Of a stretch of 38,230 bases of DNA, positions 2,725 through 35,294 are shown in pieces. The stretch's first letter is position 1, and each line of letters begins with the position of its first letter. The notes beneath the pieces are model-generated. The model was not told the origin of the DNA. It searched no databases and was given only the letters and a program-made list of their open reading frames with translations. This DNA comes from a virus. The position numbers and the translations under genes were made by a program. Where the stretch lies: positions 1 to 38,230 of the IMG/VR virus record IMGVR_UViG_3300023109_000053; one strand, 5' to 3'.

Positions 2725-2736
2725 TAGTTACTCCTA
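2713..2736 (-). repeat. Fibre start junction repeat, copy at fibre D
   Basis: This 24-base block carries the preceding TAG, the ribosome binding site (GGAG), ATG and first codons. It matches 4934-4957 at 23 of 24 positions; shorter versions lie before fibres B and E. Confidence 0.85.
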
Positions 2737-3183: not shown

Positions 3184-3187
3184 TTTG

Positions 3188-4945: not shown

Positions 4946-4957
4946 TAGTTACTCCTA
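4934..4957 (-). repeat. Fibre start junction repeat, copy at fibre C
   Basis: Partner of 2713-2736, with one base difference at a synonymous position. The small gene upstream ends inside it. Confidence 0.85.
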
Positions 4958-5224
4958 TTCGCTTCCTGGAAGTGCATTTGCTGCTACTGCTGCTGCCTGG
5001 GCACTTTTTGCTGCGTCAGTATGAAAAGTATTGCACATTGCTTGTACTTCTGTGCTTTCTGCTGACCAATCATCTGAGGGGCTTACTACATGACGATGAA
5101 AAGATCTACTGACCTCTACATCATCTCTGCTGATTACCGTAGCGGTACGAACTTGGATTACTTTCCAGCCGCCCATGTCTACTACTTCGATCTTGTCTTG
5201 TACTGTTGTTTCGCTTAAAGCCAT
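4955..5224 (-). CDS. Small fibre-cassette protein (89 residues)
   Basis: A short protein starting MALSETTVQDKIEVVD, with a strand pair (WKVIQVRTATVISRDD), a SRSFHRHVVSP turn and an alanine-rich C-terminal helix (DAAKSAQAAAVAANAL). Close relatives by pattern occur next to fibre genes in marine phages. Function is unknown; a fibre assembly factor or a small virion protein is likely by context. AAGGA is well placed before the ATG. Its TAG is embedded in the next gene's ribosome binding site (TAGGAGTAACTAATG). Confidence 0.75.
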   Translation of the reverse strand: MALSETTVQDKIEVVDMGGWKVIQVRTATVISRDDVEVSRSFHRHVVSPSDDWSAESTEVQAMCNTFHTDAAKSAQAAAVAANALPGSE

Positions 5225-5244
5225 TTTATTTTCCTTTTATTATC

Positions 5245-5287
5245 GTGGCGTTATTGCCACCTGTCCGTGCCTAGAGTCCCCTAGGCA
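5245..5287 (-). other. Tandem hairpins between fibre B and the 89-residue gene
   Basis: TGCCTAG/CTAGGCA (5268-5287) and GTGGC/GCCAC (5245-5260) form two perfect stems of seven and five base pairs. Neither is followed by a U-run on the minus strand, so terminator function is doubtful; mRNA processing or stability is possible. Confidence 0.5.
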
Positions 5288-5297
5288 TAATGTGTTG

Positions 5298-6629: not shown

Positions 6630-9600
6630 TAGTTGTTCTCCAGTGCTGTTAGTCTTGCTTCTAATTCTTGTATTGTTGCTACCAGCAGAGGCACTAGTTT
6701 GCTATGGTCAATGCCTTGGTATTCTGGGTTACCGTCTGCATCTACTGCGTCTTTAGTGCCAACAACTGCCTCTGGTACAACGTCTGCAACCTCATGTGCT
6801 AGGAATCCGTCTACCGTGGTATTTGCATCTGCAATGAAATTAAACCGTGAAGGCTTGAGTTGCAGGAGGCGCTGTGTAGCACCTGTTATACCTACCACAT
6901 TTTCTTTTAGTCTGTAGTCTGACGATTGTACTATAACAATACTGCTTCCGGTTGTATAAATTTGACCACAAAGCCCGTTAGTGTTATAGAAAGCATGGTG
7001 AGTTAGAGCATTTGTTCCCCCAACAGCTGTAGCAATAAAGCCATAACCGCTAGCAACACCGCGATAAGCAAATCCAGTTTGTGAAGCACCTGGGTTAACC
7101 CCCGCTGATCCAATGAAGACATCACCACCGGAGTTTATGCGCATGCGTTCTGCTATCGCAGGACTTGCTATAGTACCGTTATTTGTACTAAATACAAGAT
7201 CTGCTTTAGTTCCAGCACCTCCAGCGGCTTCGTTCCAACTTCCAACTTTTTGAACTTCTATTTTGGCAGCTTGTCTGTGAACAACGCCAGTACTAGTACT
7301 ATAAGAGCATAGTTCATAAGATAAACCGTGTTTTATGTTTGCGTCATTGTTTCCATTAAAACCAACCCCACTTCCATCAAGTTTTAATATTAATTCATCA
7401 GCAATTGCTGAAGAAGCATCTATTTGTAATCTATTACCCGGCGAAGTTGTTCCAATACCAACGTTAGAGCCTGAAATTCGCATGGTTTCGCTTGTGTTGG
7501 AGCCACTCATTGTATGAAAACTAAGCTCAGAGGAAGTGTTGTCCGCTTGTGCCTCTGAACGTATTTGTGCGCGTCCACCTGTTCCAGCAGTCAAGCCTAT
7601 TATTGCGTCTGTTGCCCCTGTGTCTTCTTTAATATCAAGCAAAGTAGCAGGCGAACTCGTCCCGATTCCCACGTTGCCGTTGTTATCCACATGGAGTGGA
7701 ACAGTGTTGTCAGTAACATTGTGAAGAGAAAACCCTGAGTTTGCTACACCCGGTATAGAAGGTGTCAAATCCCATACCTTAGCGTTCGCTGTATTTTGGA
7801 AGCGTACAGACGCAAGGTCATTACTGAAATTTAAATGCAAACCCTTACTAGGACTGCCAGTACCAATACCTACCTTGCCTGATGACCCCTCCACAAACAG
7901 CGCATGGGTGTTAGCGTCAGACTCAACGCGGAAGTCTAAATCTGTGGAACCTTCATTAAAGACAGTTTCTGTTGGATTAAGCAATAATTTAGAAGTGCTT
8001 GTTCCGGCGGTCATAGTGTAAAACTCTACTGACCCATCCTCTGTTCCATCGGTCATGTCTTTTATTTGCGTAAAAACTTGCCCATACGCTATTTTTTCGC
8101 TGGCATCGTTTTCGCCATAAAAGTAAATAAGTCCAGTCGCATCGTTATCTGCCGGAGAAGCTGAATTTCTAAAAAACTCTAAAACAGGTCCAGCACTTGA
8201 ATCTGCGTCTGTAGAGACAAGAGTAAGATTACTAGAGTTATCTGTAGTAGTAGCTGTGATACCACCCGTTACTGCAAGAGTCCCGGGAGTAGTTAAATTA
8301 CCGGAAAGTTTAGCAGATGTAATACTATCATCAACAGGAACATTAACGTCCAACTGATTCATTGTCATACATTCTACGAGAGCACCCGTTGGAGGAGCTT
8401 CGCTAAAAGTTAATGTAGTCCCTGATATACTATATGTCGATTTATTTTGATATACACCGTTTACAAATACTTGTGTATTATTCTCATTGACTGGGGCAGC
8501 TGATAAAGTTAGAGTAGTATCGCTACCGTCACCAGTCATAGTGTTAGAAGTTAAGTTAGTTCCATTTACTGCGGGCGATAAACGATAGATAATAATACTA
8601 TTACCGTTTGCTGGAGCGGCAGAAAAAGTTAGTGTAGTAGTACCGCCAGAAGTAGCAATACTAAAAGCATTTTGCTGCTGAAATACACCCTCTATAAATA
8701 CTAGTAAATTGTCTTCTGAAGCTGCTGGGGTGGTGAGAGCATAAGCTGTAGTGCTGCCATTTCCTGTAAAGTTATCTGCAGCGAAAGAAGCTGCACCGCC
8801 TCCCCCAATTTCTCCCCAAGCATCAGTATACCCTTCAAACTTGCCGAGAGTACTATTGTATCGGAACTGTCCAGCGACTGCGGTAGGTCGTTGCGCTGTA
8901 GTACCTGCAGGCATAACAGCGGCGCCCGTATCAGCAGTCTTACTTACTCTTAAGCCAAGAGCAGTTGCTGTAGTAGCAGCAAAGTTTGCATCATCGCCTA
9001 AAGCTGCTGCAAGCTCGTTAAGAGTGTTTAAAGTGCTAGGAGCTGAATCCCCTAGAGCAGCAATTGCCACATCTACATAAGCGGTAGTAGCAACTTTAGT
9101 ACTATTATTACCTGCAGACTGGGTTGTTGCTGTGGTGGCAGTATTGATTGTGCCACTTAAATCACCTGAGAAAGTAGTAGCTGCTGCTGCGCCTGTAATA
9201 GTTACACCCGTTGCGGAAGTAGCAATCTTAGCGGCGTTATCATGATAAAGAGTAACAGCACCGTCGACTACAAAGCTGGCCATCGTTTCTGATGTACCTT
9301 TAGTGATATCTACTTGATTATTACTGGAGATTTTTAAGTTACCAGTACCAACGTCTTTAACGTAACTATTACTGGCATCATGGAAGATTTCTAAATCACC
9401 AGCATCTCCTGCGGTAAGTTTAGTATTATCTGGTAAATCTATAGTTGCGGCAGTATCTAATGTGACTGAGCGTCCTGATATTTCTACTTCTATTGCTGTT
9501 CCATTAGGAGGAGCAGTCGAAAAAGTAAGAGTAGTTCCGCTTACACTATAGTTTGATTTTGACTGATATACACCATCTATAAAAACACGGGTGTTATTCT

Positions 9601-10093
9601 CGTTGTCAGGATCTAAAGGCAGAGTATACGCAGTGGCAGTACCGTTGCCACTTAAGGTAGCTACAGATACATTGCCCTCTCCGATTTTCTTTTTAAAGGC
9701 AATAACTTGTAAAAAGTCACCCGTTGTAGCTGCTTCTGCCAGTACCACGCTTACGGAATTATTAGCTGTATAGTCTATACCGTTATCTAGTAGAACACCA
9801 TTCAGAAAAACTTGAACTGCGCTCGGCGTATAACCAAGCTGTACACTATTATCGTCGCCCCCGCTAAAGCTAGTTTGATTATTGGTTGCAGTAAACTGAT
9901 ACTCTACCATGATGGCATCGGCAGGTGCCGCAGCACTACCAAGCTGTACTACGGACTCCACACCACTGACACTCTTTTTAATGTAAGCTTTGCCGTCTAC
10001 GGTATTGATACCGATTTCGCCCAGATCTAAATCTGAGGTAGAGGGTATTCGACCAGCAACTGCTGATCGTTTTAATTTAATAGTTTGTGCCAT
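6629..10093 (-). CDS. Tail fibre A with C-terminal S74 chaperone (1154 residues)
   Basis: This is the longest fibre gene. It starts MAQTIKLKRSAVAGR and GEIGINTVDGKAYIK, as in fibre F, then carries repeated adhesin-like units (FTGNGSTTAYALTTPAA, and two copies of an SGTTLTFS..PP.G..VE unit), a TTQSAGNNSTKVATTAYVD fibre motif, and several VGIGT..P repeats. The end, from residue 1057, is a Peptidase_S74 intramolecular chaperone (SSDYRLKENV) with catalytic Ser1058 and Lys1063, a trimerisation and self-cleavage module, closing with a leucine-rich coiled coil (LLVATIQELEARLTALENN). AGGAGG precedes the ATG. Its TAA overlaps the ATG of fibre B by one base. Confidence 0.92.
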   Translation of the reverse strand: MAQTIKLKRSAVAGRIPSTSDLDLGEIGINTVDGKAYIKKSVSGVESVVQLGSAAAPADAIMVEYQFTATNNQTSFSGGDDNSVQLGYTPSAVQVFLNGVLLDNGIDYTANNSVSVVLAEAATTGDFLQVIAFKKKIGEGNVSVATLSGNGTATAYTLPLDPDNENNTRVFIDGVYQSKSNYSVSGTTLTFSTAPPNGTAIEVEISGRSVTLDTAATIDLPDNTKLTAGDAGDLEIFHDASNSYVKDVGTGNLKISSNNQVDITKGTSETMASFVVDGAVTLYHDNAAKIATSATGVTITGAAAATTFSGDLSGTINTATTATTQSAGNNSTKVATTAYVDVAIAALGDSAPSTLNTLNELAAALGDDANFAATTATALGLRVSKTADTGAAVMPAGTTAQRPTAVAGQFRYNSTLGKFEGYTDAWGEIGGGGAASFAADNFTGNGSTTAYALTTPAASEDNLLVFIEGVFQQQNAFSIATSGGTTTLTFSAAPANGNSIIIYRLSPAVNGTNLTSNTMTGDGSDTTLTLSAAPVNENNTQVFVNGVYQNKSTYSISGTTLTFSEAPPTGALVECMTMNQLDVNVPVDDSITSAKLSGNLTTPGTLAVTGGITATTTDNSSNLTLVSTDADSSAGPVLEFFRNSASPADNDATGLIYFYGENDASEKIAYGQVFTQIKDMTDGTEDGSVEFYTMTAGTSTSKLLLNPTETVFNEGSTDLDFRVESDANTHALFVEGSSGKVGIGTGSPSKGLHLNFSNDLASVRFQNTANAKVWDLTPSIPGVANSGFSLHNVTDNTVPLHVDNNGNVGIGTSSPATLLDIKEDTGATDAIIGLTAGTGGRAQIRSEAQADNTSSELSFHTMSGSNTSETMRISGSNVGIGTTSPGNRLQIDASSAIADELILKLDGSGVGFNGNNDANIKHGLSYELCSYSTSTGVVHRQAAKIEVQKVGSWNEAAGGAGTKADLVFSTNNGTIASPAIAERMRINSGGDVFIGSAGVNPGASQTGFAYRGVASGYGFIATAVGGTNALTHHAFYNTNGLCGQIYTTGSSIVIVQSSDYRLKENVVGITGATQRLLQLKPSRFNFIADANTTVDGFLAHEVADVVPEAVVGTKDAVDADGNPEYQGIDHSKLVPLLVATIQELEARLTALENN

Positions 10094-10109
10094 CTGGCCC
10101 TCCTAGAGT

Positions 10110-10123
10110 TGCGTATATACGCA
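10110..10123. repeat. 14-bp perfect palindrome before fibre A
   Basis: TGCGTATATACGCA is a perfect palindrome in the 42-base gap between fibres F and A, upstream of an AGGAGG ribosome binding site. It could be a small hairpin in the mRNA or a protein-binding site; no U-run follows. Confidence 0.4.
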
Positions 10124-10135
10124 GAGAGAGTTTAT

Positions 10136-11767
10136 TTAGAAAGTTCCGCCGTCCAGTGAGTTACCCCAAGAAGCAACACCCGAAGTATTCATACTCAATA
10201 AGTAGTCTGAAGTAGCTACATTGCCACTAGGTTTAACTAGTCTGGTGTATCCGCCATCTGATGCCTGACCAATAAGTATATCACCTATTGCTGTAGTAGA
10301 TATGTCTTTAATTCTAATAGTGTCTGAAGAAATCTCTGTAGTTATATTATCAGGATTTGCATTTATAGTATTTCCTGACTTAGTTAATCCATCACCTGCG
10401 GTGATTTGTCCTGCGCCGGAAAATTGAGATACGGTAAGGTTAGTGCTGCCTAAAGTAGGGGAACCATTGTGTGTAAATACAAAACCATTATTTGCAAGAG
10501 TACTACCTTCTTCTACAAAAGTAAATGTACCCCCGGTTATTTCTATATTGGTATCAGCATCTGTCGCTCTAGTAATTACAAAAGCAGTAGCCGCGTCCCC
10601 TGTGGTTGTAACGGTGTAGATACCATTTTGAGTAGCAGTTGTTTGATCTTTTACAAGTATTCTATTGCCTGTAGAAAGAGTCACACCATCTATTACTATA
10701 GCAGCATTTGAGCCTGCGGTTATAGTACCATTACCATTATTGTAGGTACCTGCTAAATTAGCAGTAGTTGCTACTCTAACCGATGCTTTAACGTCTAGAG
10801 ATTGGCTAATAGCATCTACATATTCTTTAGTTGCTAAAGAATCAGTCGTGAAACCAGATCTATCTTTGTAGCCAGAAGGAACTTTAACTGTCCCATTACC
10901 ATTAGGGGCTAGAGTAATATCACCATTGGCATTAGTTGAAGAAATAGTATTGGTATCTACCCGTATATTATCTACATCTAATTGAGTGATTCCTGCGAGA
11001 GCAGTAGTCGTAGAGCCTAGTGTAAGAGTACTAGATCCTAGTGTAATATTTGCCGCATTTACAGTAACAGTGTTATTTGTAATTGCAGTGCTAATACCTG
11101 CTCCTCCTGCAAATGCGAGAGTGTCAGTAACCAAAGATACTGTATCTGTTCCGGAAGTGCCGGAAATACCTAAAGTAGTAGAGATAGACTGGAAAGATAC
11201 TGCCCCACTACCATTCGTAATTAGAGCTTGCCCTGAAGTACCATCAGTAAGGGGTAGTGCGTATCCAGTACTTGCAACATTCCCAAAATGCAGCGCCTTG
11301 TTGAAAATAATCTTTTCAGCAGAGTTAGTAGTTACTAACGTAATGTAGTTATTAGTGCCTTCTGTAAACGTAATAGAAGTAGCAGAGTTGTCTACAATCT
11401 TAAACTCAGTCGCCTGACTAGAAGTATCTATAGTACCTGCATCAATATCTAAGTTACCAGAAGCTACTAGATCGATGTCTCCAGAGCCAGAAGTAATACT
11501 GTTAGCCCCTATAGTAAGATTAGCAGTTTTTAGCTGATCTACTTTACTATTAGAGTCTACAATAATAGAACTACTGGCTGTAAGGGTACCCGCAGTATGG
11601 TCCAACATATCTGTGTATAACTTACCACCAATAGCGATTACTGCACTGTCTGCAGGAGCACCAATCCATAATTTGTCACTGCTATCCGAATATGCTAGCT
11701 CGCCTTGGGCAAGAGAACTCGGTGCAGAAGTACTGGTACTGCGTTTGATTTTAATTGTTTGAGCCAT
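10136..11767 (-). CDS. Tail fibre protein F (543 residues)
   Basis: The N-terminus MAQTIKIKRSTSTSAPSSL leads into GELAYSDSSDKLWIG, the standard start of many phage fibre and tropism-determinant proteins; fibre A starts almost the same way. The rest is T-, S-, N- and A-rich beta repeat (LTLGSTTTALAGITQLDVDN and similar) including a GYKDRSGFTTDSLATKEYVD unit, with no S74 chaperone. The C-terminus is NSLDGGTF. GGAG lies seven bases before the ATG. It should be a trimeric shaft protein near the tail tip; receptor is unknown. Confidence 0.85.
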   Translation of the reverse strand: MAQTIKIKRSTSTSAPSSLAQGELAYSDSSDKLWIGAPADSAVIAIGGKLYTDMLDHTAGTLTASSSIIVDSNSKVDQLKTANLTIGANSITSGSGDIDLVASGNLDIDAGTIDTSSQATEFKIVDNSATSITFTEGTNNYITLVTTNSAEKIIFNKALHFGNVASTGYALPLTDGTSGQALITNGSGAVSFQSISTTLGISGTSGTDTVSLVTDTLAFAGGAGISTAITNNTVTVNAANITLGSSTLTLGSTTTALAGITQLDVDNIRVDTNTISSTNANGDITLAPNGNGTVKVPSGYKDRSGFTTDSLATKEYVDAISQSLDVKASVRVATTANLAGTYNNGNGTITAGSNAAIVIDGVTLSTGNRILVKDQTTATQNGIYTVTTTGDAATAFVITRATDADTNIEITGGTFTFVEEGSTLANNGFVFTHNGSPTLGSTNLTVSQFSGAGQITAGDGLTKSGNTINANPDNITTEISSDTIRIKDISTTAIGDILIGQASDGGYTRLVKPSGNVATSDYLLSMNTSGVASWGNSLDGGTF

Positions 11768-12596: not shown

Positions 12597-13148
12597 TTAC
12601 CTCCATCTAGGGCCTTCCATCCAACAGACTAATGATAGTCTCTTTCCCTTTGTTACTTCAGTAACTCTGTGAACATTATAACTCGGAAATACTAGTATAG
12701 AGCCTTGATTTCTAATACCTCCAGGAGTTTCTATATTTTTAAATTGAAAGTCTCCTCCTTCGTAGTCATTTTCATCGGATAGCTGAATAATAATAGAAAG
12801 CTTTCTATCGTACATAGAATTACTGTCCCAGTTTATATCATGATGCCAGTTATAGAACGAGCCTTCTGTATACTCGCCAAACTGTACGGCGGGAGTCCAG
12901 TCAACATCAAATGCAAATGCATTCCTATTAGCCTCTAATAAATAAAAAGATACTAATTCTTTTATTTCTGGGGTATGTATCCAACTTATGCGTGTATCCC
13001 TAACAGTGTCGTCTGGAGCAAATTCATTACGCTCTGCTGCAAATACTGTAGCATCAAAAAAGTCAGCATTTTTATAACAAGTATCTATTATTCCTTCGCA
13101 CTGTTCTTTGCTTATTAAAGCATTCCAATATTGCCAATTATCTCTCAT
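12597..13148 (-). CDS. PKHD-type prolyl hydroxylase-like 2OG-Fe(II) oxygenase
   Basis: Starting at ATG 13146-13148 (TAATG overlap; a TTG six bases upstream is the alternative) gives 183 residues. The double-stranded beta-helix is clear: QFGEYTEGSFYNWHHD provides the H102-x-D104 iron pair, RKLSIIIQLSDEN and YEGGDFQF give the core strands, FPSYNVHRV gives H160, and R170 in GKRLSLVCW should bind 2-oxoglutarate. This arrangement is that of PiuC/P4H-type hydroxylases, which hydroxylate prolyl or similar residues using oxygen and 2-oxoglutarate. Given the collagen-like tip three genes upstream, the tip prolines are an attractive but unproven substrate. It is the last gene before promoter P3. Confidence 0.85.
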   Translation of the reverse strand: MRDNWQYWNALISKEQCEGIIDTCYKNADFFDATVFAAERNEFAPDDTVRDTRISWIHTPEIKELVSFYLLEANRNAFAFDVDWTPAVQFGEYTEGSFYNWHHDINWDSNSMYDRKLSIIIQLSDENDYEGGDFQFKNIETPGGIRNQGSILVFPSYNVHRVTEVTKGKRLSLVCWMEGPRWR

Positions 13149-13459
13149 TACCAAGTCTTCCCTGTAGTTACCCCGGTTCTATTTTGCTCTTCTGCTCTGG
13201 CGGTTATTACAGCTTCTAACGCTGCTACTTCATCTTCGCCTAGTGTAGCTTTAACCCATGTTATTGCATTCTCTTCGGTTATAGAAGCATATGCTGTCAA
13301 TGAGCTTAAATCGCTAAGGTCTAAATTAATTAGCCCTGATATTTTACAAGCCTTTGAGCCTTCCGTATGCGATATAGAATACTCTATAGCGTACACTATG
13401 TTTTCTTTGGATTCGTATGAGTCATACGATAATAATTTGTCTGCTGCCCAAGTTGCCAT
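13148..13459 (-). CDS. Small conserved-looking phage protein
   Basis: The start is placed at ATG 13457-13459 because GGAGA stands seven bases upstream and this avoids a deep overlap with the oxygenase gene; it gives 103 residues starting MATWAADKLL. The first half is beta-like (ENIVYAIEYSISHTEG), followed by a helical acidic C-terminal half (GEDEVAALEAVITARAEEQ). Similar-looking small proteins beginning MA.W occur among cyanophage and other marine phage structural clusters, but I know no function. It sits between two oxygenase-like genes, and its TAA overlaps the next ATG by one base. Confidence 0.7.
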   Translation of the reverse strand: MATWAADKLLSYDSYESKENIVYAIEYSISHTEGSKACKISGLINLDLSDLSSLTAYASITEENAITWVKATLGEDEVAALEAVITARAEEQNRTGVTTGKTW

Positions 13460-13460
13460 G

Positions 13461-13982
13461 TTATTCTCCTGCGTCAAAAAAGAAGGTCTGAAATAACCTT
13501 CCTGTTTCTTTGCTTGTACCAAATCCAGCTAGTACACTTCTGTGAAAAAGCTTGCCGTTATATAGTACAAGCCTGTTAAATATATTTCCTATAAAATTTG
13601 TTTGAGTCCAGTGCTCTAAGTTATTACAGTCTGGCTTATCTACTTTGGAGTCATAAGTTGCTGTTCCACTTTCTATAGGTGCATCGGGTGTTAGAAATAA
13701 AACCCCAGCCCATTCAGTAGAGTCACTATGAATCCAAGTAGAGTCTTGTACAGTAGTATATTGATAACAAGTATTGTATTCATTATTCCAGTTAAATAGT
13801 TTTTTATGTACTATTTCTTTCTCAAAGAAATCTTTTAAATAAGTACTTTGCTCTGTAGGCTCCGGTAATGATCTGCGCCCGGGATAGTTTCCTAAAGTAT
13901 CATAGCTTAAGCCGAGTGCATGCTGTCTAACATCTTCTGGATTATTATAAAAATCATCTATTACTATAATATTTGTTTTCAT
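13461..13982 (-). CDS. DUF6445-type Fe(II)/2-oxoglutarate oxygenase-like protein
   Basis: The start is taken at ATG 13980-13982, overlapping the upstream stop as ATGA, giving 173 residues starting [12 protein letters not shown]. The sequence follows the DUF6445 pattern: IDDFYNNPEDVR, GNYPGRRS, CYQY, then WIHSDSTEWAGVLFLTPDAP. The iron ligands of a double-stranded beta-helix oxygenase are visible as H85-x-D87 and the distal H157 (LFHRSV), with R172 as the probable 2-oxoglutarate-binding arginine. Members are common in phages and are thought to be hydroxylase-like, with substrates unknown. It lies 13 residues-worth of coding context from the tip gene in one coupled unit. Confidence 0.75.
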   Translation of the reverse strand: MKTNIIVIDDFYNNPEDVRQHALGLSYDTLGNYPGRRSLPEPTEQSTYLKDFFEKEIVHKKLFNWNNEYNTCYQYTTVQDSTWIHSDSTEWAGVLFLTPDAPIESGTATYDSKVDKPDCNNLEHWTQTNFIGNIFNRLVLYNGKLFHRSVLAGFGTSKETGRLFQTFFFDAGE

Positions 13983-14719
13983 ATGGTGAAGTCCGGAGTT
14001 GTGGTATTTAAAGGATGTGCCCATTTTGCGTCTGTTTTTGGAGAATCTTTCCAGTACTCATCAGGATTTGTTGTCGAGTACTCACCAAACGTTGCTATTC
14101 TATTGTATATTCCCATCATTTTACTCTGTGTTGGACGCTCTGCGCTTTGAACATACTCCCCAGCTGCCTCATTATAAAAAACGTTTTCATTCTGAGCAGG
14201 AGTTACATCACTCATATTTTGCCAATTTTTTCTTGCTCCTGGGCTTCCATGCCTAATCTTTACTTTTATTTCAGAATGAACGGATGTAAAGTATCTTGAA
14301 CCGTGATACTGCATGGCACCCATATACTTGCTATGTTTCTGTCCTCTGAGTTCTGGAGCCACTACATGTCCAACATTGGTTACGTGCTTAACTCCGTCAC
14401 TATCAATATAGAGCTCTGTTTCCGAGAAGCCTAGATTTACACCATCTACTTTATATAAAGTATAATTAAAATGAGTTGACTCTGGGCTGAGATTTCTTCC
14501 GTAAAATAAAGAAGTAATAAAATTCTTATCAAACATGTAAGCTAAATCCCTTTTTGTAATATCTTCTTCAGCTTTACTGAATGCTTTATAGCCCCACTTC
14601 ATATTTAGAAAGAAATCTCTTTCTGTCCACGGATACTTTTCAGCACTATAAACTACCCCCTCAGGGGTAGTTAAAGTAAGTGCATAATCCTGTATTATAT
14701 CTGGTATATTTAAGTCCAT
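13979..14719 (-). CDS. GNAT-like acyltransferase (tentative)
   Basis: The 246-residue protein has a segment resembling GNAT motif A: a strand ([10 protein letters not shown]) followed by [16 protein letters not shown], residues about 120-136, where the R-G-Q/x-x-x/H turn would hold acetyl-CoA phosphate. Upstream strands ([20 protein letters not shown]) fit the GNAT core. N- and C-terminal parts are not recognised. Acetyltransferases transfer an acyl group to an amine; substrate here is unknown. It overlaps the tip gene by ten bases, and its TGA overlaps the next ATG (ATGA), so it is made with the tip and the oxygenases and might modify the tip or a host target. Confidence 0.5.
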
Positions 14720-17700
14720 GTTAGTACCTTGTAGTTTATTCCTAATTCTTGATAATTTACTGTGTAATATCCTGCATCATCAATAGATACGAGATCGGGT
14801 CTTGTCTTAATAACCTCTTGGGCTATAACTCCTATGGTTGGGCCTGCTATCCCTAAACTATCCGCTAGTTCATTCCAATCCCAGGAGTATATATTTTGTC
14901 CCTTAAACCATTTTAAGAATTTTATATTTTTCTTTAGTCGTACATCACTGCTCTTATTATGAACAACAAAAGAGTTTGCAGTATAAGTACTTGTTCCATC
15001 TGTAGAAAGATTATATACTGTTTTTTCGCTCTCTTCTAAAGGTCTCTTGGTTAGAGCAGACAAAACTTCTTCGCCTCCTTCATCTTTTATTAAAATATCT
15101 CCAACCTGTAACTTTCCTACAAGTATATCTGCTACTTCTTTTCCGTCAATGATTGATGTTAGCTCGGGATCTACAGCTTTCCATCCGTCTTTTGTTAAGA
15201 ATGGGTGATTTGCAGTAAAGAAGGGCTCTTGTTCATTAATACCATATAAATCGTCAAACGGAAACTCAACAGACTCATTTTTGAGAACGGTATTAATACT
15301 ATCATTTTCACCCCTAACTTTATCTCCTGCCTTTACGTCCACAATATTTTTAAAGCTGCCATCTTGCAAACAAACAGGAGTACCTGCAATAAAACATCCA
15401 ATAGGGCCTATATCTATATCAACATAATAAGCAACACATGAGGCAGAAACATTATTGTACTTCATAGAACAAGTAGCTGCAACACTATTTTGACCGTTTC
15501 TAGTATTTGTCCAACCTGAAGGAGCAGTGCTTGCCCAACTTACAGTATCTGCAGTACTGGCAGAGCTAGCTACAACTGATGCCGTACTTGTTGTAGTTCC
15601 AGTTTGTCGTGTCCACGTAACAGTTTGGCTTGAACTTCTATTTGCAAAAGTTACACTGCTTTTGCTTGCTGAAACGGCCGTTGGAGATACTCCGCTAGGT
15701 CCTGGGGGGCCCTGGGGTCCTTGTGGTCCTTGACCGCCTGGAGGTCCTGGATTACCGGCACCGCCTGCAGGTCCTAAGGGACCGGCCGGCCCATTTGGTC
15801 CTTGTGGTCCTTGTGGGCCCGCGGGTCCTTGAGCTCCTGCAGGGCCTGTTGCGCCTTGGGGGCCCACTGGTCCCGTGCCTCCAGCAGCACCAGAAGGTCC
15901 TGTAGCACCTGTAGGGCCGGTATTACCTTGTGGTCCTTGGGGTCCCTGGGGACCAGGGGATCCTGTAAGCCCTTGAGACCCTGTAGGGCCTGTGGGGCCC
16001 TGATTACCTTGTGGACCTGTAGCTCCTGTTGGCCCTGTTTGTCCTTCAGTAATTAAAGGATCTCCAAAGCTGCCAGAGACTAAAGCAGTACTATTTAACG
16101 CTGTACCTATAATAGTGTGTGTTACACCCGTCACCCCGCCAGATATTTGAGTTGCATTTGCAAACCAACGGCTAGAAGTTTGTTCATCTACTGTGAACCA
16201 GTACCCTTGAGCTCCATTATAAAAAGTGGGGGTAAGCTTGGTCATATCAGATACCGCAGAGCTGCCCCCTGCAAATACTTGAACCCAAAAAGAAGTATCT
16301 GACTGAGGAACAGTGCTGCGACCAGTATGTGCCTGAGTAGCTGCCCAAACTTTACTACTATGCTGTATTACACTGCCTAGCGCATAAGTACCTCCGCTGG
16401 ACCAGTTTGATATAGAAGGGCTGTTATCGAGAGTTGTTCTCGCTGCTCCGTTATAGAATAAGAACGCACTTAACCCATCAGGTCCTGCTGCGCCTGCGGA
16501 ACCTGCTGCTCCTCCCGGGCCTTGAGCTCCGATGACTCCTTGTGGGCCTGTAGCACCTGTAGGGCCTGTAGGACCCCCTGGCCCTTGAGCACCAGGAACA
16601 CCCTGTGGACCTTGCTCTCCTGGGGCCCCGTCGGGACCAGGAACGCCTTGAGCGCCTTGTGGTCCTTGGATACCGCGCTTGCTCTTTGTTATAGTTTGAA
16701 CTCTCTGATAGGTATTAGCTCTACCTAAACTATCTGTTACAACTATAGTGAAGCTTACTGTGCCGACATCCTGAGTGAAGCCTGTAATTTCACCCAATGC
16801 ATAACTATTAGTTCCTATAGTAGGAGTGCTATCTATAGTTACGCCTGTTGAGGCTACTACACTCGTTACTCTGAAAGAAGGCTCCGTGTAGGGAGCTGTG
16901 CCGTCATAAGGAAGCTGAACATCTCCTATAAAAGCTGTAATGGTGGTGCCTGAGTTAGCAAATGAAGAAACTACTCCGTTTGCTTGTGCAATTATAGAAA
17001 CGTTATCATTAGTTAAATTTACTACAGGCGCATCTTGCGCTCCGTCTGATACGCCAACTTGTCCACCAGTCGCACTCGCAGGAAAATAAGTAGAGAATAC
17101 TTCTCTAGGAGCTACTCCTGAGCTTCTTTGACTAACTACCAGAACTGCGTATCTTACCCAATAGTAAAAAGTTTGCTTACCCGCACCTGTTACAGCGTCT
17201 GTAAATACATCTCCCTTTGAAATGCCAACAATTTTAGCATTAGACCTATTATTATCGTTAGATCTCCAGATCTGAACACTATAACTAGCTGGATTAAATT
17301 TAGTGATATTAGTCCAGCTAAGAGCGATGCCGCCTCGATCAGTTTGAGTAGCGGAAAGATTACTAGGAGCTGCCGGAGCTGGTAGATTTGCTGCTATGCC
17401 TTCTACTGCTACGATATCTCCTGGGTTATCGGCTTGAACTATGTAAGCATTCTCTTCGTGCTCTTCGGCGGTAACTTGTACTAAACAATTATTTTTAAAG
17501 TTTAAGTTAGTGATTCTAAAGTACTTATTAGTCCAGCCGAATCTAGGATGAGTTATTCTTATAACATCACCTGCAACTAATAAAATAGCCCAAGGTCCTA
17601 ATGTGAAGTTAATCTTAAGGCCTGCTCTAGATTGGTCTAAATATTGTTTAGCGTTTACTCTAGCATTGTAGTAATTAGTTACATAAGGGGAATCAACTTT

Positions 17701-20700
17701 GCCCTTCTTAGGAACCATTCTATCTTCTTTTAGATAGTTGGAATTAAATAGTACCACAGATCTTGGTTCAAATCTATTTTGAGGATCGTTTATATTAACG
17801 TCTACATGATTAAAAGTGCCTTTTTGACCTGCATCTTCTACATCTATACTACCTATTATGTCTAAGGCATTAATTTCATTTACTGCATAAGACTCACCTG
17901 CTGTGGAAGTATAAGAAGTAGCCCCGCCCGCCGCCGATTCAACGTCTAAAAAGTACTTACCGTTCGAGTATCGAATTAAACCATTGAAGTGCCCCAGCAT
18001 ACTGTTAATATTTGCAAATACAGGTCTTTTTGTATCAAGTACTACGTTAGTTTGGTGACGAGTAACCTCTCTTTGATTATGAGACTCCCATCCCATATAT
18101 CTCCAATACTTAACACTATCTGAATCATATAATTCATACCCAGAATTAAATAACTCGGAAGCAGTGTCATAAGACATTACTAGAGGATTTCCATCAAAGT
18201 TACCTATACCGGATCCTAAAGTAATAGTACTTGATCCACTACCTGAAACCTTTTCAAGATTGAAGGCGGTTACTACATTACTATTACTGTTAGCGCCACT
18301 TACTCCGTCCGCCGTTGCTTGGTATAAAGTACCTAGATTATAGTATAGTTCTCCGGTATAGAAGTATTTCCAATCTGCCCATCTATTACCAAGCTTTCCT
18401 ACTACGTCTGTAAAAGTAACTTGAGTTCTTGCAGTTCCATTAATTGTTACGGAAGAAACACTTTCCACAGTCCCTTGGAACAGTGTTTTTGAAGATACAG
18501 CATGTTTGTATACATCTCCTACGGTTATGGTTGCGGTAGTGCTAGATATAACTGTTACGTCAGATCTAGTATCGCACTTACGAGCTGCAGACAGGAAAGA
18601 ATCCATATCTAAATCGGCTTCTAAATCCAGACCCGCGCCATACCTAGAGCTGGTCATATAGTCTAAGAATTGAATTGCAGGGTTAATGCTTACTCTAATA
18701 TCATCGGCAGGAAATATCTTATAGGTATCTGAAGCTTTGGGAATATTATCATACTCCCATGCAGTATCTACAGTAGCAACTTTTGCTGAACCATTGTAAT
18801 CCGAAATAGTACGTCTTTGTACTGTTGTGCTACCATCTGCGTGTATATTTGTTAGCTCTATAGTTAAACCGTTATAGATATCATCAGTACTAGAAGCACT
18901 AGATGCTAGAGCTATACCGTCTCTTACAGTTACAAATTTATTTACAAGAGTCGAAGACCCTGTACCCGTACTGCCAAGACCTGAGATAACAGAACCTGAG
19001 TATGTAAACTCAAAACTGTTTAACCAATCAACTCCGCCTGTCAAGAAATTTCCGGTAGATGTTATTGATACTTTACGGCCTGCTGCTAGTGCTGCTTGAT
19101 ATGCTGCTGTTCCCGTACCTATATTGACTTCGGCCGAGTTATTATCGGAAGCTGCGGCTGCACTTGCTACTTGTCTCTGTAGAATCTCAGGAACTACGCC
19201 TGAGTTCTCAACGTGATTATGAGCTGCTACGTGATAGACTTTGCTACCACTTTGCATGTAAAAACTTGTTTCTGTAGTAGAACCTGTAGGATCACTAGCA
19301 AAGCGTACTCGTGTAGAAGTGGTTCCATCCATTCTAGTTAAAGTATATTTATCAGCAACAGTAGTAGTGGTAATAGTACTATTGTTACTAGTTTTTTTAA
19401 TAGTTACTGCTTCGCCTATATTAAACGAAGTAAGAGCAGTATCAGAAGACTCGTACCCTGCATGTTGCTCATAGGAATAATCATAATTATAGCATCTTAT
19501 TCCCTTACCCCTTACGACAAAATCTAAGGAAGGTATAGTTGTTTCACCTTCTCCAATTTCATAGTTTGCTACTACATACGCGGTATCTAGTAAAGCGTGA
19601 TTCGCTCCCCAGTAGTCTGCGGAGCCGCTGTAATACGTAGACCCTACTTTAAAATTACTAGCATTTTGTACGAGTACAGAGTTTGCTTTTTGCTCTGGCT
19701 TACCTGTATGTACAGTAAGACTCGCGGTCATAGGAGTGCTGAAAAAAGTAGATGTTTCATGGGTTAGACCAGAACCTTGGCTACTTGCGCCTCCTAAGTT
19801 AAAATTAGCTACAGGTAGATTTAAAGGCTCACTTCTAGCGTATGCTCCTCTGCCCTCTGAGTCCCATGTATTGAACCCTTGAGAAAATGAATGAGACAGT
19901 GCATTAAATGTTCCAGACCAACGATTCCTAGGTGTAAGAGTGTCCCCTCTATCCATTCGTCCGGAACAAAGTACGTCTATAGTGTTTTCAGATGTTTGGA
20001 CAGCGCGAGTATCAAAATCGTTAGAATCTATACATACTGAAGACGTGTCGTCCATGTAGATATCATAAATACCGCCTATCTCTCCCTCTGAGATTGCATA
20101 GGCCACAAAAACTTGTTTTGAGTCACTTGCTAAAGTGTCTACAAATACAGGTATGCTATCCAACTTATTTACACCATAAACCACGGGCAAATACTTTGCA
20201 TCTAGATTAAAGCGTAAATCTACTTCTCTGTCTACATCTACTTCGTACTCATAAGTTCTGTATTTCTTTGATCCTAACCAAGTTCTTTTCACAGTAGTTC
20301 TAATTCTACTTTCTTTAACCTGATAAGTAGAAACTAAATTAACAGCTTGCTCGCTATGTAAGAACCCTAAGTCAGTAGCATAGGACGGTCTATGAACGCT
20401 CTCTCTGTCTGGTCTATTATTTGCGTCTAAAGCTCTATGTTGGGCGTCAGAAGTAAGTCTACCACTAACTCTACTAAAATCTGACCAATGACTAGTGACA
20501 GACCACGACACACTGGCCGCAGAGGTAACATCATCAGTTAATTTTCCGGATGCAATTATACCTTTGAATAGTAGGTAAGGTTTGCCAATAATAAGTCCTT
20601 CAGAGTCTAGGTGCGCCTTATATACAAAAACATCTCTGTTTATGTAGCCGGCATAACTACTATCGCTACGAATATTTAGAATACCCTGAACTTCTGGACT

Positions 20701-21255
20701 ACAAAAATTTAAACTATAGACAACACCTGTTTCACTTGTAAGTGTGGACATACCTGTCACACTTGCAGTTTTATTGTCATTAGAAAAAGAGTTTATTCTT
20801 ATTTTTTTAGTATCATTATTACCGGAGCCACTTAGTAACTCTATTAAGTCTCCCTCTCTGAAGCCCGCTTCTACTAAATCTTGTGTAGCTGTAATGCTAG
20901 AAGCGGTTATATTTAGGCTAGTAATTAATGAGGTATTGAGAGCTGCAGCGGATACTTTTAAACTAATAGAAGACGTCTTAGCTTGAGTACTCTCTGACGT
21001 GTCCCCCACACTTATTAATTTATTTGCAATGTATGTTTGAGGTCCATTGTTATTATTTTGTACATCTTGTGACAGATCATCAAATACTATGTCTATAGAG
21101 CCGTCACTTATATAAGCGTAATCTGTTGCTTTACGGGCACTCTTGCCTCCTGTCGTTACGACAGGCTTTTCAAACTTAACAAGGTGTGCATACGCAAACG
21201 GTTCATTCTCTAGTAAAGAATCTACTAATCCGCTGTCTAAATCTCTTATTGCCAT
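14710..21255 (-). CDS. Giant tail-tip host-recognition protein with collagen, Hint and S74 domains
   Basis: The 2181-residue protein sits where lambda J lies. Residues about 855-875 ([19 protein letters not shown]) match the J-type tip hub, followed by hub strands to about 1285. A fibronectin type III domain spans about 1290-1375. Collagen-like G-X-Y repeats occupy 1528-1594 and 1738-1855. Between them, about 1605-1660, is a ChtBD3-like module (W..GGTY..GSVI..SSKVWAA...W). An Ig-like segment precedes Cys1954. Residues 1954-2100 form an intein-like Hint domain ([12 protein letters not shown] with His2017, FVVHN). Residues 2103-2181 are an S74 intramolecular chaperone with Ser2103 and Lys2108. 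It should sit at the tail end, bind the host surface, and process itself. It overlaps the GNAT-like gene by ten bases. Confidence 0.9.
14956..15396 (-). other. Intein-like (BIL/PT-type) Hint domain in the tip protein
   Basis: This segment encodes residues 1954-2100 of the tip protein. Block A begins CFIAGTPV with Cys1954, block B has TANH (Thr2014, His2017), and the end is [11 protein letters not shown] with His2099-Asn2100. At 147 residues there is no room for a homing endonuclease. The +1 residue is lysine, not Cys, Ser or Thr, which fits bacterial intein-like (type A) cleavage domains better than a splicing intein. Confidence 0.85.
15691..16044 (-). repeat. Collagen-like repeat tract 2 of the tip protein
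   Basis: About 39 consecutive G-X-Y triplets (residues 1738-1855), rich in GPQ, GPT, GPA and GAT. Such tracts form trimeric collagen helices and make stiff fibre shafts. The GC-rich DNA here contrasts with AT-rich surroundings. Confidence 0.93.
16474..16674 (-). repeat. Collagen-like repeat tract 1 of the tip protein
   Basis: About 22 G-X-Y triplets (residues 1528-1594). Several have proline in the Y position (GVP, GAP), the usual target of collagen prolyl-4-hydroxylases. Confidence 0.92.
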
Positions 21256-31770: not shown

Positions 31771-33831
31771 CTATTGGAAAGGGAAACGAACTGCAGGCTT
31801 ATTAGCACCCGCGCCAGCAACCAACTCGTTAAAGCCAAGAGACTGAGTTGCGACCAATACGGTACGCTGCTCTTTGACGATGTAGTCAGTTTCTACGTTA
31901 ACACCGCGCAAACGTGGAATCACATAGTTATCCATGTTTACAGCAAGAGCTGCAGTAGTAGTAGCTGCACCAGCGTTAGCCAAGTTGCTAACCAAACGAT
32001 CTGTAGCAATTACAGGTGATCCGAAGACCGTACCAACCATACCAGAAAGCTTAGTAGCCAAATCACTACCAACTTCTGTTACATCGGTAAATCCTGAAGC
32101 ATCAATCAAGTTGAAGTATGCATCAGTAGGAACGATGTAAGCTACACGGCTAGCTTCTAGACCGTACTTACCCATTTCCTTACGCATTGCAAGAAGGTTA
32201 GCAGGAGTTACAACACCAGTTGCTGAAGCATCTAGTGCGGTAAGAGCAGAAGCTGCACCGTAACCATTTGCATTGTCAGAACCATTCACACCTACTAGAC
32301 CTTTAGAGATGTTACCTGCACCAGCACCAACTAGTAGAGCTGAGTCAATAGCGATTGCGTGAGCACGTGCTAGAGCTGAGGTAAGCATAGGTAGGATTGA
32401 AATAACGATTTGCTCGTCAGTATCAGCAGGAATAAACGTGCTTGAAATCAATCTGTGTGCTTGCAAGATTACCTGATTAACATTATAGTTGTTATCAGAT
32501 GCGCCTGCTTCTTCCAAGTTGTTCGCAGCTGTATCAGCACCGCCAGCACTAAAGTTAGCAGCTTCGGTATCAGGAGCGATTGGTAGTACAGTAGCACCAC
32601 TTGAAACTTGAATTTCGCGGAACAAAGGTGCAACCTTCATTGCCTGACGAACTTCTTCTTCAAACTGGTTTGATACGATTACGTCAACACCAACAGCAGA
32701 ACCATCACCAGCAGTACCAGTATATGTTACGCCAGCTTTTTCTAGAGTTTCACGACCAAAGTTAGTATCCCAACCTTTGCCAGTAATCTTACCAAGAATG
32801 TGAGCAGACAATAAGTCGCCACCCATTGCTTTAGCATCTACGCCGTTTGTGCGGCCAGAGAAGTCACGCTTGCTAGTACGCATAGCTTCAAGCTCGGCTG
32901 ATTTTTCCATCAACGCAGACTTGTACTTTTCTAGTACTTCAGCAGTTTCAACACCTTTAGACGCGAAGTCTGCTTGCATGTCAGCCATTAAACGCTCGGC
33001 ACCTGATTGTACACCAGATACTACAGCAGTTTTAACTGTTTCTTCTTGTTGAGCTTTAGCTTCAGCGTCTGCTGCTTCCTTCTCAACGATTTCTTGTGCT
33101 GCGGCTTCATCCGCGGCTTTTTGTTCGGCTTGCTTCATAGCAATCTTGGTAGCAGTTTCTTCTGCTACTTGCTTTGCAAATGCGGCTAAGTCGATTTCTG
33201 GAGTATTAACTTCAGACATTTGTATCTCCTTTTGAACCTTTTCGGTTCCGTCCGGTGTATCACTAGCTACGCTAGAAGTATTAACTTCGTCTTTAGCCAG
33301 AGTCTGACCGGCTAGATCTACACGATTTGTGAAAGTTTTTTTGAATTCTTCATACTCGTCCATAGAGTCAAAAGATTTCGCTAGCGAGAAAGTAGCTTCC
33401 TGATTACAAGGTACGGAAACAACCGATACCTCAAATAATTCTGCGTCCTTTATCATTAATCCGTCAGTTTCCTTTATGAAATCAGCATCCTTGACTCGGA
33501 AACCAACAGAAAATGCTCCAAGGATACCTTCTTTTACTAATTCGCAAACATTAGCGGGTGCTGACTTGCTAATCCTTGCTTCTAACTCCAGGCCATTCTC
33601 TGTTACTTTAAGGCCTGTAGCACGACCGATAGGACGATCGTAATCATGATTGAAAAGAATAATAGGGTTCTTTTCGAAATTCTTTAAACCACCCTTTTCC
33701 CAAGCCTGAGCTGAGATAGAGTCGCCAGCACGATCGAAATCTGCTGTACTTGCCATACCGCGAATCATTACTGACCCGTCATCTACCGCATGGGTTTTGA
33801 AAGTTGAGGTTAGGTTAAAAATTTTATCCAT
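31771..33831 (-). CDS. Fused prohead protease (S78)-scaffold-major capsid protein
   Basis: One 686-residue ORF joins three head functions. Residues 1-150 are an HK97-type S78 prohead protease, with His62 in NHDYDRPIGRA and Ser108 in LGAFSVGF. Residues about 205-320 are Ala, Glu, Lys and Gln-rich and probably coiled coil, as in scaffolding or delta domains. Residues about 335-686 are the HK97-fold capsid protein (VSNQFEEEVRQAMKVAPLFR, then ALARAHAIAIDSALLVG and a C-terminal strand-rich domain). Maturation cleavage probably falls near residues 318-335. An internal start at Met205 (see separate entry) would make protease-free capsid subunits. The gene overlaps the preceding one by eight bases and is followed by two hairpins. 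Fusions of this type are known in some HK97-like phages. Confidence 0.92.
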   Translation of the reverse strand: MDKIFNLTSTFKTHAVDDGSVMIRGMASTADFDRAGDSISAQAWEKGGLKNFEKNPIILFNHDYDRPIGRATGLKVTENGLELEARISKSAPANVCELVKEGILGAFSVGFRVKDADFIKETDGLMIKDAELFEVSVVSVPCNQEATFSLAKSFDSMDEYEEFKKTFTNRVDLAGQTLAKDEVNTSSVASDTPDGTEKVQKEIQMSEVNTPEIDLAAFAKQVAEETATKIAMKQAEQKAADEAAAQEIVEKEAADAEAKAQQEETVKTAVVSGVQSGAERLMADMQADFASKGVETAEVLEKYKSALMEKSAELEAMRTSKRDFSGRTNGVDAKAMGGDLLSAHILGKITGKGWDTNFGRETLEKAGVTYTGTAGDGSAVGVDVIVSNQFEEEVRQAMKVAPLFREIQVSSGATVLPIAPDTEAANFSAGGADTAANNLEEAGASDNNYNVNQVILQAHRLISSTFIPADTDEQIVISILPMLTSALARAHAIAIDSALLVGAGAGNISKGLVGVNGSDNANGYGAASALTALDASATGVVTPANLLAMRKEMGKYGLEASRVAYIVPTDAYFNLIDASGFTDVTEVGSDLATKLSGMVGTVFGSPVIATDRLVSNLANAGAATTTAALAVNMDNYVIPRLRGVNVETDYIVKEQRTVLVATQSLGFNELVAGAGANKPAVRFPFQ
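33217..33231 (-). promoter_or_regulatory. Internal ribosome binding site and ATG for a capsid-only product
   Basis: Inside the fusion gene, AAGGAG (33226-33231) stands six bases before ATG 33217-33219 (Met205), in frame. This is one of the best ribosome binding sites in the window and lies just after the protease domain and before the scaffold helix. Initiation here would give a 482-residue scaffold-plus-capsid protein (31771-33219), solving the stoichiometry problem of many capsid subunits per protease. Confidence 0.72.
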
Positions 33832-34105
33832 TCTTTTTCCCCGTTTTTGCTTGGGCTAATTCCGTTAGAGGATCTTTATCCTCTTTTTTGTGAATAAGTT
33901 CCCATAGTTCCGGTTCGTATTTTTCAATCCAGTCTACTGCTCCGGTATACGTTCCCATCACTTTTACTATCTCTTTAGGAGATAGGAAAGCCGGTCTATC
34001 AAGGGCTCTCTTATACTCATTTAAAGAAACAACATATCCTTTCTCAGCAAAGTACATTCCTAATTCATGTACTAATCTGTGTTTTCTATTTCTAGTCACT
34101 GCCAT
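33824..34105 (-). CDS. Small conserved-looking head-region protein, unknown
   Basis: The start is taken at ATG 34103-34105 because AAGGTG lies six bases upstream; this gives 93 residues beginning MAVTRNRKHR and overlaps the portal gene by 14 bases. A longer form from 34153 would lie deeper inside the portal gene without support. The protein is basic at both ends with a central alternating helical pattern (LVHELGMYFAEKGYVVSLNEYKR is the longest ordered stretch, here partly quoted as LVHELGMYFAEKGY). No membrane segment, signal or known motif is seen. Its TAA overlaps the start of the protease-capsid gene by eight bases, so it is probably made with the head proteins. A packaging accessory or scaffold helper is possible, but I do not recognise it. 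Confidence 0.65.
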   Translation of the reverse strand: MAVTRNRKHRLVHELGMYFAEKGYVVSLNEYKRALDRPAFLSPKEIVKVMGTYTGAVDWIEKYEPELWELIHKKEDKDPLTELAQAKTGKKNG

Positions 34106-35294
34106 CTTCATCACCTTCAGTTGGTCTACCACCCTCATCTGGGTTGGCTGCACTTCCTGCTATATTGGCAGGAACTCTAACATCGTCTTGTCCATCTAAA
34201 GCTTCAAAGCCTAATCTAGTTCTGGCTTCATTGATAGTAATAATACCACCATTTACTAATGAACTATAGTACTGTGACTGATCTCTAAGCTCTGGTTGTA
34301 GAGCTGGGATATCTATGACTTCTTCTTTTATTTCGTATCCGAAGAAGCGGCTGTAAGCGTAGTTTATCTTTCTTACTATTGGTAAGATTGTTTCAAGATA
34401 ATACATTCTCATATTAGGACGAATGTTTGCATTGTTTCCTGAGTCTAATAAGATAGGCGGGATACCCAATGCTTTTAATATAATTGTTTCGTTTTCTGTA
34501 ATAGAAGATTGGAAGTCTAACTCTTTAAAGTTTACGTTAGAAATGCTATCAATCTCTATACCACCGTCAAGAATCAGAGGGCGCCTACCACCTGCGTCCG
34601 GACGATATCGAATGCTCCATGATTGAATCATTCGTTCTTTAATCTTTTCACTTAATGTATTTGGGCTTTTTAGTACTAGTCCTGGTACTGCTCCGTTCTT
34701 AAAGAAGTTATCTTGAAACTTTCTCATTGAAGCAGTAAGGGCCATTGTTCGTACAGCGGGCTTCAGTCTTGAAGTTCCTCGGAAGATAGAGTAAAAGGAG
34801 TTTTCCTTAACATGTATGATTTCGTCCGGGCCGTAGTCTACATCGTTATATGTGTACTTCTCTATAAATGTTTTTGGGTCTGCGTGTATTGTTACGCTAT
34901 CTGCAGGTAGATGATACAAATGAGCACCATCGTAGTATATAAAAATGTTTCCGTCTAGTAAATAGTCGGTAATTAGGTTTCTTTTAAAAGAGCTGACATC
35001 TTGAAATAAGTTAGGCTCTTTATTAAGTAGCTTATTTACGGTAGATCGTCTCATTCCTTTTTGAACGCCATTTGTTTGATTAGGCTGAACAACTACTGGA
35101 ATCTCTGCTACGTCATCTACAATCATATTAACGCCGCGATTAACAATCTCTAGCGTTTCATAGAACTGCTCGTAATTCTGAGTATACTCTCTAGAACCCT
35201 CTTTATCGTTACCAAAGTATTGCTGTATAGGATTCAATTTTTCCATATCGGCTTCTTCAGCCTTATTACCAAAAATGTTACTATACCATGCCAT
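34092..35294 (-). CDS. Portal protein, HK97 type
   Basis: This 400-residue protein forms the dodecameric ring at the capsid vertex through which DNA enters. The family is recognised by the conserved order: an early helical segment (VNRGVNMIVDDVAEIPVVV), LLDGNIFIYYDG near residue 115, a YHLPADSV strand, an EIIHVK strand, a stem helix with NGAVPGLVL, and an LGIPPILLD segment followed by an arginine-rich helix. Length is normal for the pfam04860-type portal. The C-terminal tail is acidic (EGGRPTEGDEDGSD). It overlaps HNH upstream by 14 bases and the next small gene by 14 bases, consistent with one transcription unit from P1. Confidence 0.92.
   Translation of the reverse strand: MAWYSNIFGNKAEEADMEKLNPIQQYFGNDKEGSREYTQNYEQFYETLEIVNRGVNMIVDDVAEIPVVVQPNQTNGVQKGMRRSTVNKLLNKEPNLFQDVSSFKRNLITDYLLDGNIFIYYDGAHLYHLPADSVTIHADPKTFIEKYTYNDVDYGPDEIIHVKENSFYSIFRGTSRLKPAVRTMALTASMRKFQDNFFKNGAVPGLVLKSPNTLSEKIKERMIQSWSIRYRPDAGGRRPLILDGGIEIDSISNVNFKELDFQSSITENETIILKALGIPPILLDSGNNANIRPNMRMYYLETILPIVRKINYAYSRFFGYEIKEEVIDIPALQPELRDQSQYYSSLVNGGIITINEARTRLGFEALDGQDDVRVPANIAGSAANPDEGGRPTEGDEDGSD

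Follow-up and report, generated by a model that had tools for sequence, protein, structure and literature searches.

A conserved putative nested start for the capsid precursor inside a fused prohead protease-scaffold-capsid gene of uncultivated phages

How does a phage whose prohead protease is fused to its shell protein avoid carrying a protease on each subunit? The question is raised by an open reading frame (ORF) of 686 aa, read from 33831 to 31771 on the minus strand of a 38,230-base virus record, the whole of which is called the window here. According to two papers, the HK97 prohead has 415 capsid subunits and about 60 protease copies (PMC12749128), and T5 has 775 copies of its capsid protein pb8 and a separate protease, pb11 (PMC5292684). 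The original prediction for this gene was that a nested in-frame start provides many capsid subunits and few proteases, in the form of a minor full-length fusion and a major capsid precursor of 482 residues. This dosage argument is consistent with the published copy numbers.

The 686-codon ORF was found to carry an S78 protease and a capsid part as predicted; its strand, which had been left unstated, is the minus strand. Protease, scaffold and capsid are all in one ORF, a tripartite arrangement of the Gifsy-2 kind with a protease of a different family. The protease part comprises residues 1-204 (33220..33831, minus), with the S78 domain at 22-157 and a variable linker at 158-204. Pfam PF04586 matched residues 22-157 (E 7e-16, 59.2 bits, cut-off 21) and NCBIfam TIGR01543 (proheadase_HK97) matched residues 37-152 (72.6, cut-off 59); phrog_80 was also assigned. 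Since the profile matches exceed the curated cut-offs, this part is a predicted S78 (HK97-type) prohead protease. The primary start codon (33829..33831, minus) overlaps the 3' end of the upstream ORF 33824-34153 and is preceded by GGGG 7 nt upstream, with a duplex energy of -5.7, weaker than that of the nested site.

The capsid part of the ORF gave no Pfam capsid match, and TIGR01554 stayed below its cut-off (19.8 vs 27.5 bits). A profile of 31 relatives, with no T5 sequence among them, matched the T5-type capsid 8ho3 among solved chains with an E value of 9.7e-79. T5-type capsids were also the top Foldseek matches of the predicted fold (E 8.4e-19; model mean pLDDT 62.7). Because the general HK97 capsid models are weak on this part, it was assigned to the T5 pb8 branch and is predicted to be an HK97-fold major capsid protein nearest to pb8 of phage T5. 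The HK97 capsid of the original prediction stands on sequence and fold likeness to T5-type capsids, and falls short where the general models miss their cut-offs. The scaffold-like helix claimed with it is seen as a long helix predicted at residues 215-290 and 296-320, in the same low-confidence structure model.

Alignment with T5 pb8 places a putative scaffold (delta-like) domain at residues 205-365 (32737..33219, minus). The T5-type PDB chains have a precursor of 458 aa and a mature form of 299 aa, from which cleavage in T5 is placed after residue 159. This position aligns here with the position after K365, a residue that was invariant in 13/13 and in 31/31 relatives. Cleavage after K365 would yield a mature capsid protein of 321 aa (31774..32736, minus). 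A precursor starting at Met205 (31774..33219, minus) would have 482 residues, the scaffold taking up about 161 and the mature capsid protein 321. In a multiple alignment (L175 not included) Met205 shares an invariant column with the N-terminal residue of each of five T5-like capsid proteins. By this homology, Met205 corresponds to the start of a stand-alone T5-like capsid gene.

At the protease-scaffold border the minus strand reads AAGGAG (33226..33231, codons K201-E202), ATACAA and ATG (33217..33219, Met205). The Shine-Dalgarno (SD) sequence lying six bases before an in-frame ATG, which had been the starting point of the original prediction, was thus confirmed. The duplex energy of the site with the 16S tail was -8.7 in the window, and the same value was the median for the nested ATG in 99 representatives (<92% identity). 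For 1295 other internal in-frame ATGs in these representatives the median was -1.0, and 0.46% reached -7.5 or lower. In 79 of 98 cases the primary start scored worse than the nested site. Local folding at the nested start was only a little weaker than in other places (mean z 0.37). Of the starts of the 28 window genes listed, only that of ORF 6629-10093 outscored Met205.

ORF 6629-10093 is one of several consecutive tail-fibre-like ORFs on the minus strand of 913-11767, the others being 913-2724, 3188-4945 and 5298-6629; VGIGT-type repeats were seen by eye. A 1154-aa tail-fibre-like ORF has an endosialidase-chaperone domain at its end. The same domain is C-terminal in a 2181-aa tail protein with collagen repeats (14710-21255, minus). 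Between these two domains of the 2181-aa protein a Hint/intein-like stretch (CFIAGTPV ... NHPF ... VVHN) was noticed by eye, unsupported by Pfam. Among the tail genes there is also a protein with a 2OG-Fe(II) oxygenase domain (PF13640; 12597-13154, minus), adjoining DUF6445 (13461-14024) and DUF7936 (13148-13522) proteins.

Conservation of the site in related fusion genes, on which the original prediction depended, was found at the level of nucleotides rather than residues. In the window and 80 IMG/VR relatives (63-100% identical), all fused, the Met205 column held Met in 81/81. AAGGAG stood six bases before the ATG in all of these except L046, which has GAGGAG, so that NAGGAG was present in 81/81. 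In a wider set Met was found at the column in 165 of 166 sequences; in the remaining one, L090, an ATG is found close by, and its AGGAG is in a different codon phase. The intermediate clade had Met at the column in 82/82. A conserved SD and start codon at a domain border, as in a nested in-frame start of the lambda C/Nu3 kind, were thereby found. The sequences are related, and the counts are therefore not independent events.

A broader comparison was made with 91 clusters at 80% identity, formed from the 414 fused loci among 426, some contigs being represented twice; the 426 loci exclude six T5-like references and two other phage records. An in-frame start with an SD energy of -5 or lower, at most 90 codons after the protease, was present in 90 of the 91 fused-gene clusters, compared with 14 of 272 control windows of equal size in the capsid part. 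With the limit at -6 the numbers were 68/91 and 8/272. L277 was the sole exception, with no candidate nested start. The sites of the distant group (B and Bcap) were weaker, 14 of 33 reaching -6 in Bcap. At the sequence level, conservation of the putative nested start is regarded as confirmed for a large set of uncultivated phages of a marine lineage. Contigs of metagenome-assembled genomes carry nine of the relatives; most of these genomes are labelled Gammaproteobacteria and two Parcubacteria. Binning of viral contigs is unreliable, and the labels name possible hosts at most.

The fusion itself was kept in 414 of the 426 loci; ten of the remaining loci are cut off at their 5' end by the end of the contig and two are split (L395 and L232). 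Among the 416 loci with enough upstream sequence, the fusion was thus kept in 414, a number to be read with the fact that most scans used a fused-protein query and kept the best 80 matches, which favours fused genes; two scans with a capsid-only query agree. In L232 the break is inside the capsid part and is uninformative on the nested start. L395 has 86% nucleotide identity to the fused L408, and only a few bases ahead of the SD its reading frame is shifted by one base (region 1850-2000 of L395), so that the protease frame stops some five codons beyond the capsid ATG. AAGGA and the ATG are kept, and the capsid frame is unbroken throughout. If the frameshift, which separates the two frames, is real, the capsid protein of L395 must start at the nested ATG. 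L395 is a single metagenomic contig, in which an assembly or sequencing error is possible.

RNA hairpins around the nested site are an addition to the original account. The one closest to the start, H2 (GAACC-GAAAA-GGTTC; 33234..33248, minus), ends 14 nt before the nested ATG. In the nucleotide alignment its arms lie 12-21 nt before the ATG in nearly all relatives of the close and intermediate clades, with letters that differ by lineage. A first scan for stems anywhere in the upstream 33 nt gave a modest excess (score of at least 12 in 51% vs 21%). The sharper scan, with the stem fixed adjacent to the SD, gave a score of at least 9 in 83/83 unique upstream sequences and at least 11 in 69/83. 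When the 5' arms were swapped, these scores were reached in 52% and 28%, and when codons were shuffled, in 21% and 7%. Held-out sequences scored at least 9 in 41/41 and 10/10 (51/51).

RNAalifold gave no pairs on alignment A4, which mixes two hairpin registers. The structure was recovered after the registers were split (alignment A5, 45 of the 83 unique sequences) and with a longer element (alignment A6). In the 45 one-register sequences 93.8% of cells were paired, and 33 changes on both sides were counted vs 8.3 in shuffles. The covariation of 0.480 compares with 0.208 +/- 0.024 in shuffled sequences (0/500) and at most 0.167 for slid partners. Opening of the SD, compared with shuffled upstream sequence, showed a small effect (0.589 vs 0.554; 49 of 60 examined, out of 83 unique sequences). 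In the distant group (B and Bcap, 41 sites) H2 was not above shuffles, with a score of at least 9 in 10/41 vs 18%. In the close and intermediate clades, covariation identifies H2 as a predicted RNA hairpin directly before the nested site.

Further upstream, hairpin H1 (33252..33311, minus) has the helices CCGGU/ACCGG, CUGGCUA/UAGCUAG and GAAGU/ACUUC; its sequence is conserved in many close relatives and absent in others. A regular expression for H1 matched 46 of 67 close-clade representatives, of which 45 were genuine, having the stretch GATCTAGCCGGTCAGnCTCTGGCTAA ... GCTAGTGAYACACCGG before H2. L053 was a false match and was removed from A6; three representatives were counted as being without H1 only because their stretch is identical to that of another. 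Unconstrained RNAalifold of 40 H1 sequences gave three stacked helices and part of H2 at -16.07 kcal/mol, with changes on both sides at 6 of 17 pairs. With the structure specified, 96.7% of cells were paired and the covariation was 0.192 vs 0.061 in shuffled sequences (0/500) and at most 0.062 when slid. The middle helix is uninformative on covariation because it hardly varies. The folding energy of the 117-nt stretch of the window was -33 kcal/mol (z -3.1). The exact core of H1 occurred at least 117 times in viral loci, in each case in this gene among the matches listed.

An alternative pairing of GCUAG with an upstream CUAGC is also possible for H1. Pairing of H1 with the SD was rejected, as the SD side varies without compensation, and an R1 match on the other strand of the window was discarded as the product of a near-palindrome. 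Rfam gave nothing at the gathering score in the window; the best sub-threshold match in the element was DUF2815 (15.2 bits vs 41.2 needed, E 1.9).

Synonymous differences were depressed at codons 101-130 and 161-220. An overlapping out-of-frame gene was dismissed as the source of this dip, the stop-free runs in the other frames differing among relatives. Within the protease coding region, codons 102-130 can form helices of 9 bp and 12 bp in the close and intermediate clades only (S1; 33442..33528, minus), and S1 was not seen in the distant group. The count of 245 G-U pairs to 13 A-C mismatches suggests that the sense-strand RNA is what folds. The four-fold sites were mostly a pyrimidine opposite G. 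The conservation index of S1 was 0.79, an index that also rises with plain conservation. In the pair counting, changes on both sides occurred at one pair only, with 9 such cells, and a slid control reached 10. As the index tracks plain conservation and compensation is limited to one pair, an RNA structure at S1 is suggestive only, its remaining support being the surplus of G-U pairs and the pyrimidine bias of the four-fold sites.

One explanation for these observations would be that only the fusion is made, that the protease releases itself at the protease-scaffold border and that AAGGAG-ATG is a relic of separate genes. S78 proteases do act on capsid precursors, and since T5-like phages have separate genes, the two may have become fused at some time in the past. 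A relic would be expected to decay, yet the synonymous positions of the site were kept while the linker diverged in length and sequence. On a FastTree tree of the representatives the third base changed 0 times at codon -4 and once at codon -3, the median over 55 K/E/Q columns being 14; three further columns with one change are all in the protease region around S1. The arms of H2, moreover, change in compensation, and a protease on every subunit would differ from the situation in HK97 or T5. This explanation is regarded as very improbable.

The conservation might also lie in the protein, with K-E-x-x-M kept as, for instance, a cleavage site and the likeness to an SD following from it. E202 and M205 are nearly invariant residues, and K-E is common in the distant group too. 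The codons fit this poorly. In the 99 representatives the start was ATG in 99/99 and codon -3 was GAG in 98/99 (GAA in L088), GAG making up about one third of Glu codons. Codon -4 was AAG in 50, CAG in 41, ACG in 6 and GAG in 2, so that the residue varies between K, Q, T and E while the third base is G in 99/99. Where a K-E pair precedes the ATG in clusters Lcap, B and Bcap, lysine is encoded by AAG in 29 of 34 cases; for K-E pairs at other places in these ORFs the figure is 42 of 257. Some relatives (L090, L388, L417 and L390) have the SD in a different codon phase. A protein-level cause is accordingly held to be even less probable than a relic. No better placed is the proposal that the internal SD and the hairpins pause elongating ribosomes for folding of the protease, or mark mRNA processing, instead of serving initiation: the hairpins do sit in the inter-domain linker and S1 could be a double-stranded processing site, but neither a pause nor a cut would require an ATG at a constant distance, whereas the ATG is kept in 99/99, L395 needs initiation at the nested ATG to make any capsid protein, and processing is compatible with nested initiation.

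The preferred reading, to which a probability of roughly 0.86 is given, is that the gene has two in-frame starts, giving a minor protease-scaffold-capsid fusion, by which protease would enter the prohead, and from the nested ATG a 482-residue precursor, the major product, of which the shell would be built. It is based on the fusion and its retention, the conservation of the nested site at the nucleotide level, the coincidence with the start of a stand-alone homologue and the covarying hairpin, all of them features of the sequence. From these we infer initiation at the nested ATG, the nested product as the major one, and the cleavage site. The nested start proposed originally is supported both by the nucleotide-level conservation and by the position of Met205 at the T5-like capsid start. 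Retention of the fusion (414/416) implies that the long protein is presumably needed, and retention of the nested site that the short protein is presumably needed as well.

In the proposed mechanism, one late mRNA region would be read twice in the same frame. Initiation at 33831 would give the full fusion, in minor amount from a leaky two-start gene, and initiation at 33219, with its strong SD and H2 directly upstream, would give the scaffold-capsid precursor homologous to T5 pb8. Because the fusion has the same scaffold and capsid domains, it would be expected to co-assemble into the prohead and bring the protease in at a set sub-stoichiometric ratio. The protease would then cut near K365, freeing the scaffold and itself. 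H2 would serve initiation, its likely role being to keep the SD unpaired or to slow or hold off ribosomes coming from the primary start; together with H1 and S1 it may also mark an mRNA processing site. In one model of translational coupling, described in a review, RNA structure is opened by upstream translation (PMC12548453).

A wider proposal, put forward tentatively and at somewhat under even odds, is that the junction doubles as a peptide linker and a dedicated intragenic RNA element (S1, H1, H2 and SD-ATG). This element would set the ratio of fusion to capsid protein by gating initiation or by mRNA cutting that leaves a capsid-only message, and unrelated tripartite genes such as that of Gifsy-2 would have reached the nested start independently. 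If the two-start reading is true, it would offer a simple answer to the question of how a protease on each subunit is avoided. The conserved hairpin lies within coding sequence and would represent a novel type of signal for controlling translation in abundant marine phages. If the nested product is made, annotation pipelines that report the long ORF alone would overlook the principal capsid protein.

Protease-capsid fusions as such are already known. PHROGs has entries for them, phrog_617 and phrog_4523 among others. The thaumarchaeal proviruses NCAV2-Pro1 and Nvie-Pro1 have a prohead protease fused to the capsid protein, in NCAV2-Pro1 a typical caudoviral one; these are archaeal, and a nested start is unmentioned in the accessible text of the paper (PMC6563490). 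In the full texts covered, which include few subscription journals, neither these hairpins nor a nested start within a fusion of S78 protease and capsid was found to be described.

The T5-like phages (Demerecviridae) have a homologous S78 protease (pb11) followed by a homologous capsid precursor (pb8) with an N-terminal scaffold domain. They differ in that protease and capsid are two neighbouring genes and no fusion product is made. The genes are 2-17 nt apart in five of six records and overlap by one base in the sixth (AAS21); folding of the six T5-like capsid starts gave no matching hairpin upstream of any. Lambda C/Nu3 and herpesvirus UL26/UL26.5 are protease-scaffold genes in which an in-frame nested product is the abundant partner, made in the herpesvirus from its own transcript. 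Unlike in the gene described here, the nested product consists of scaffold alone, with the capsid protein encoded by a gene of its own. The composite capsid gene of the lambdoid phage Gifsy-2 (L552 2472-4562) is, like the gene described here, a one-ORF fusion of protease, scaffold and capsid, with a ClpP-like protease of an unrelated family. Its strongest internal in-frame SD-ATG is Met221 (-8.8), which by our reading of the sequence, not by a profile, lies towards the end of the ClpP part; a second strong site, Met186 (-8.7), is inside the ClpP part. Gifsy-2 is a possible independent case of the nested-start solution.
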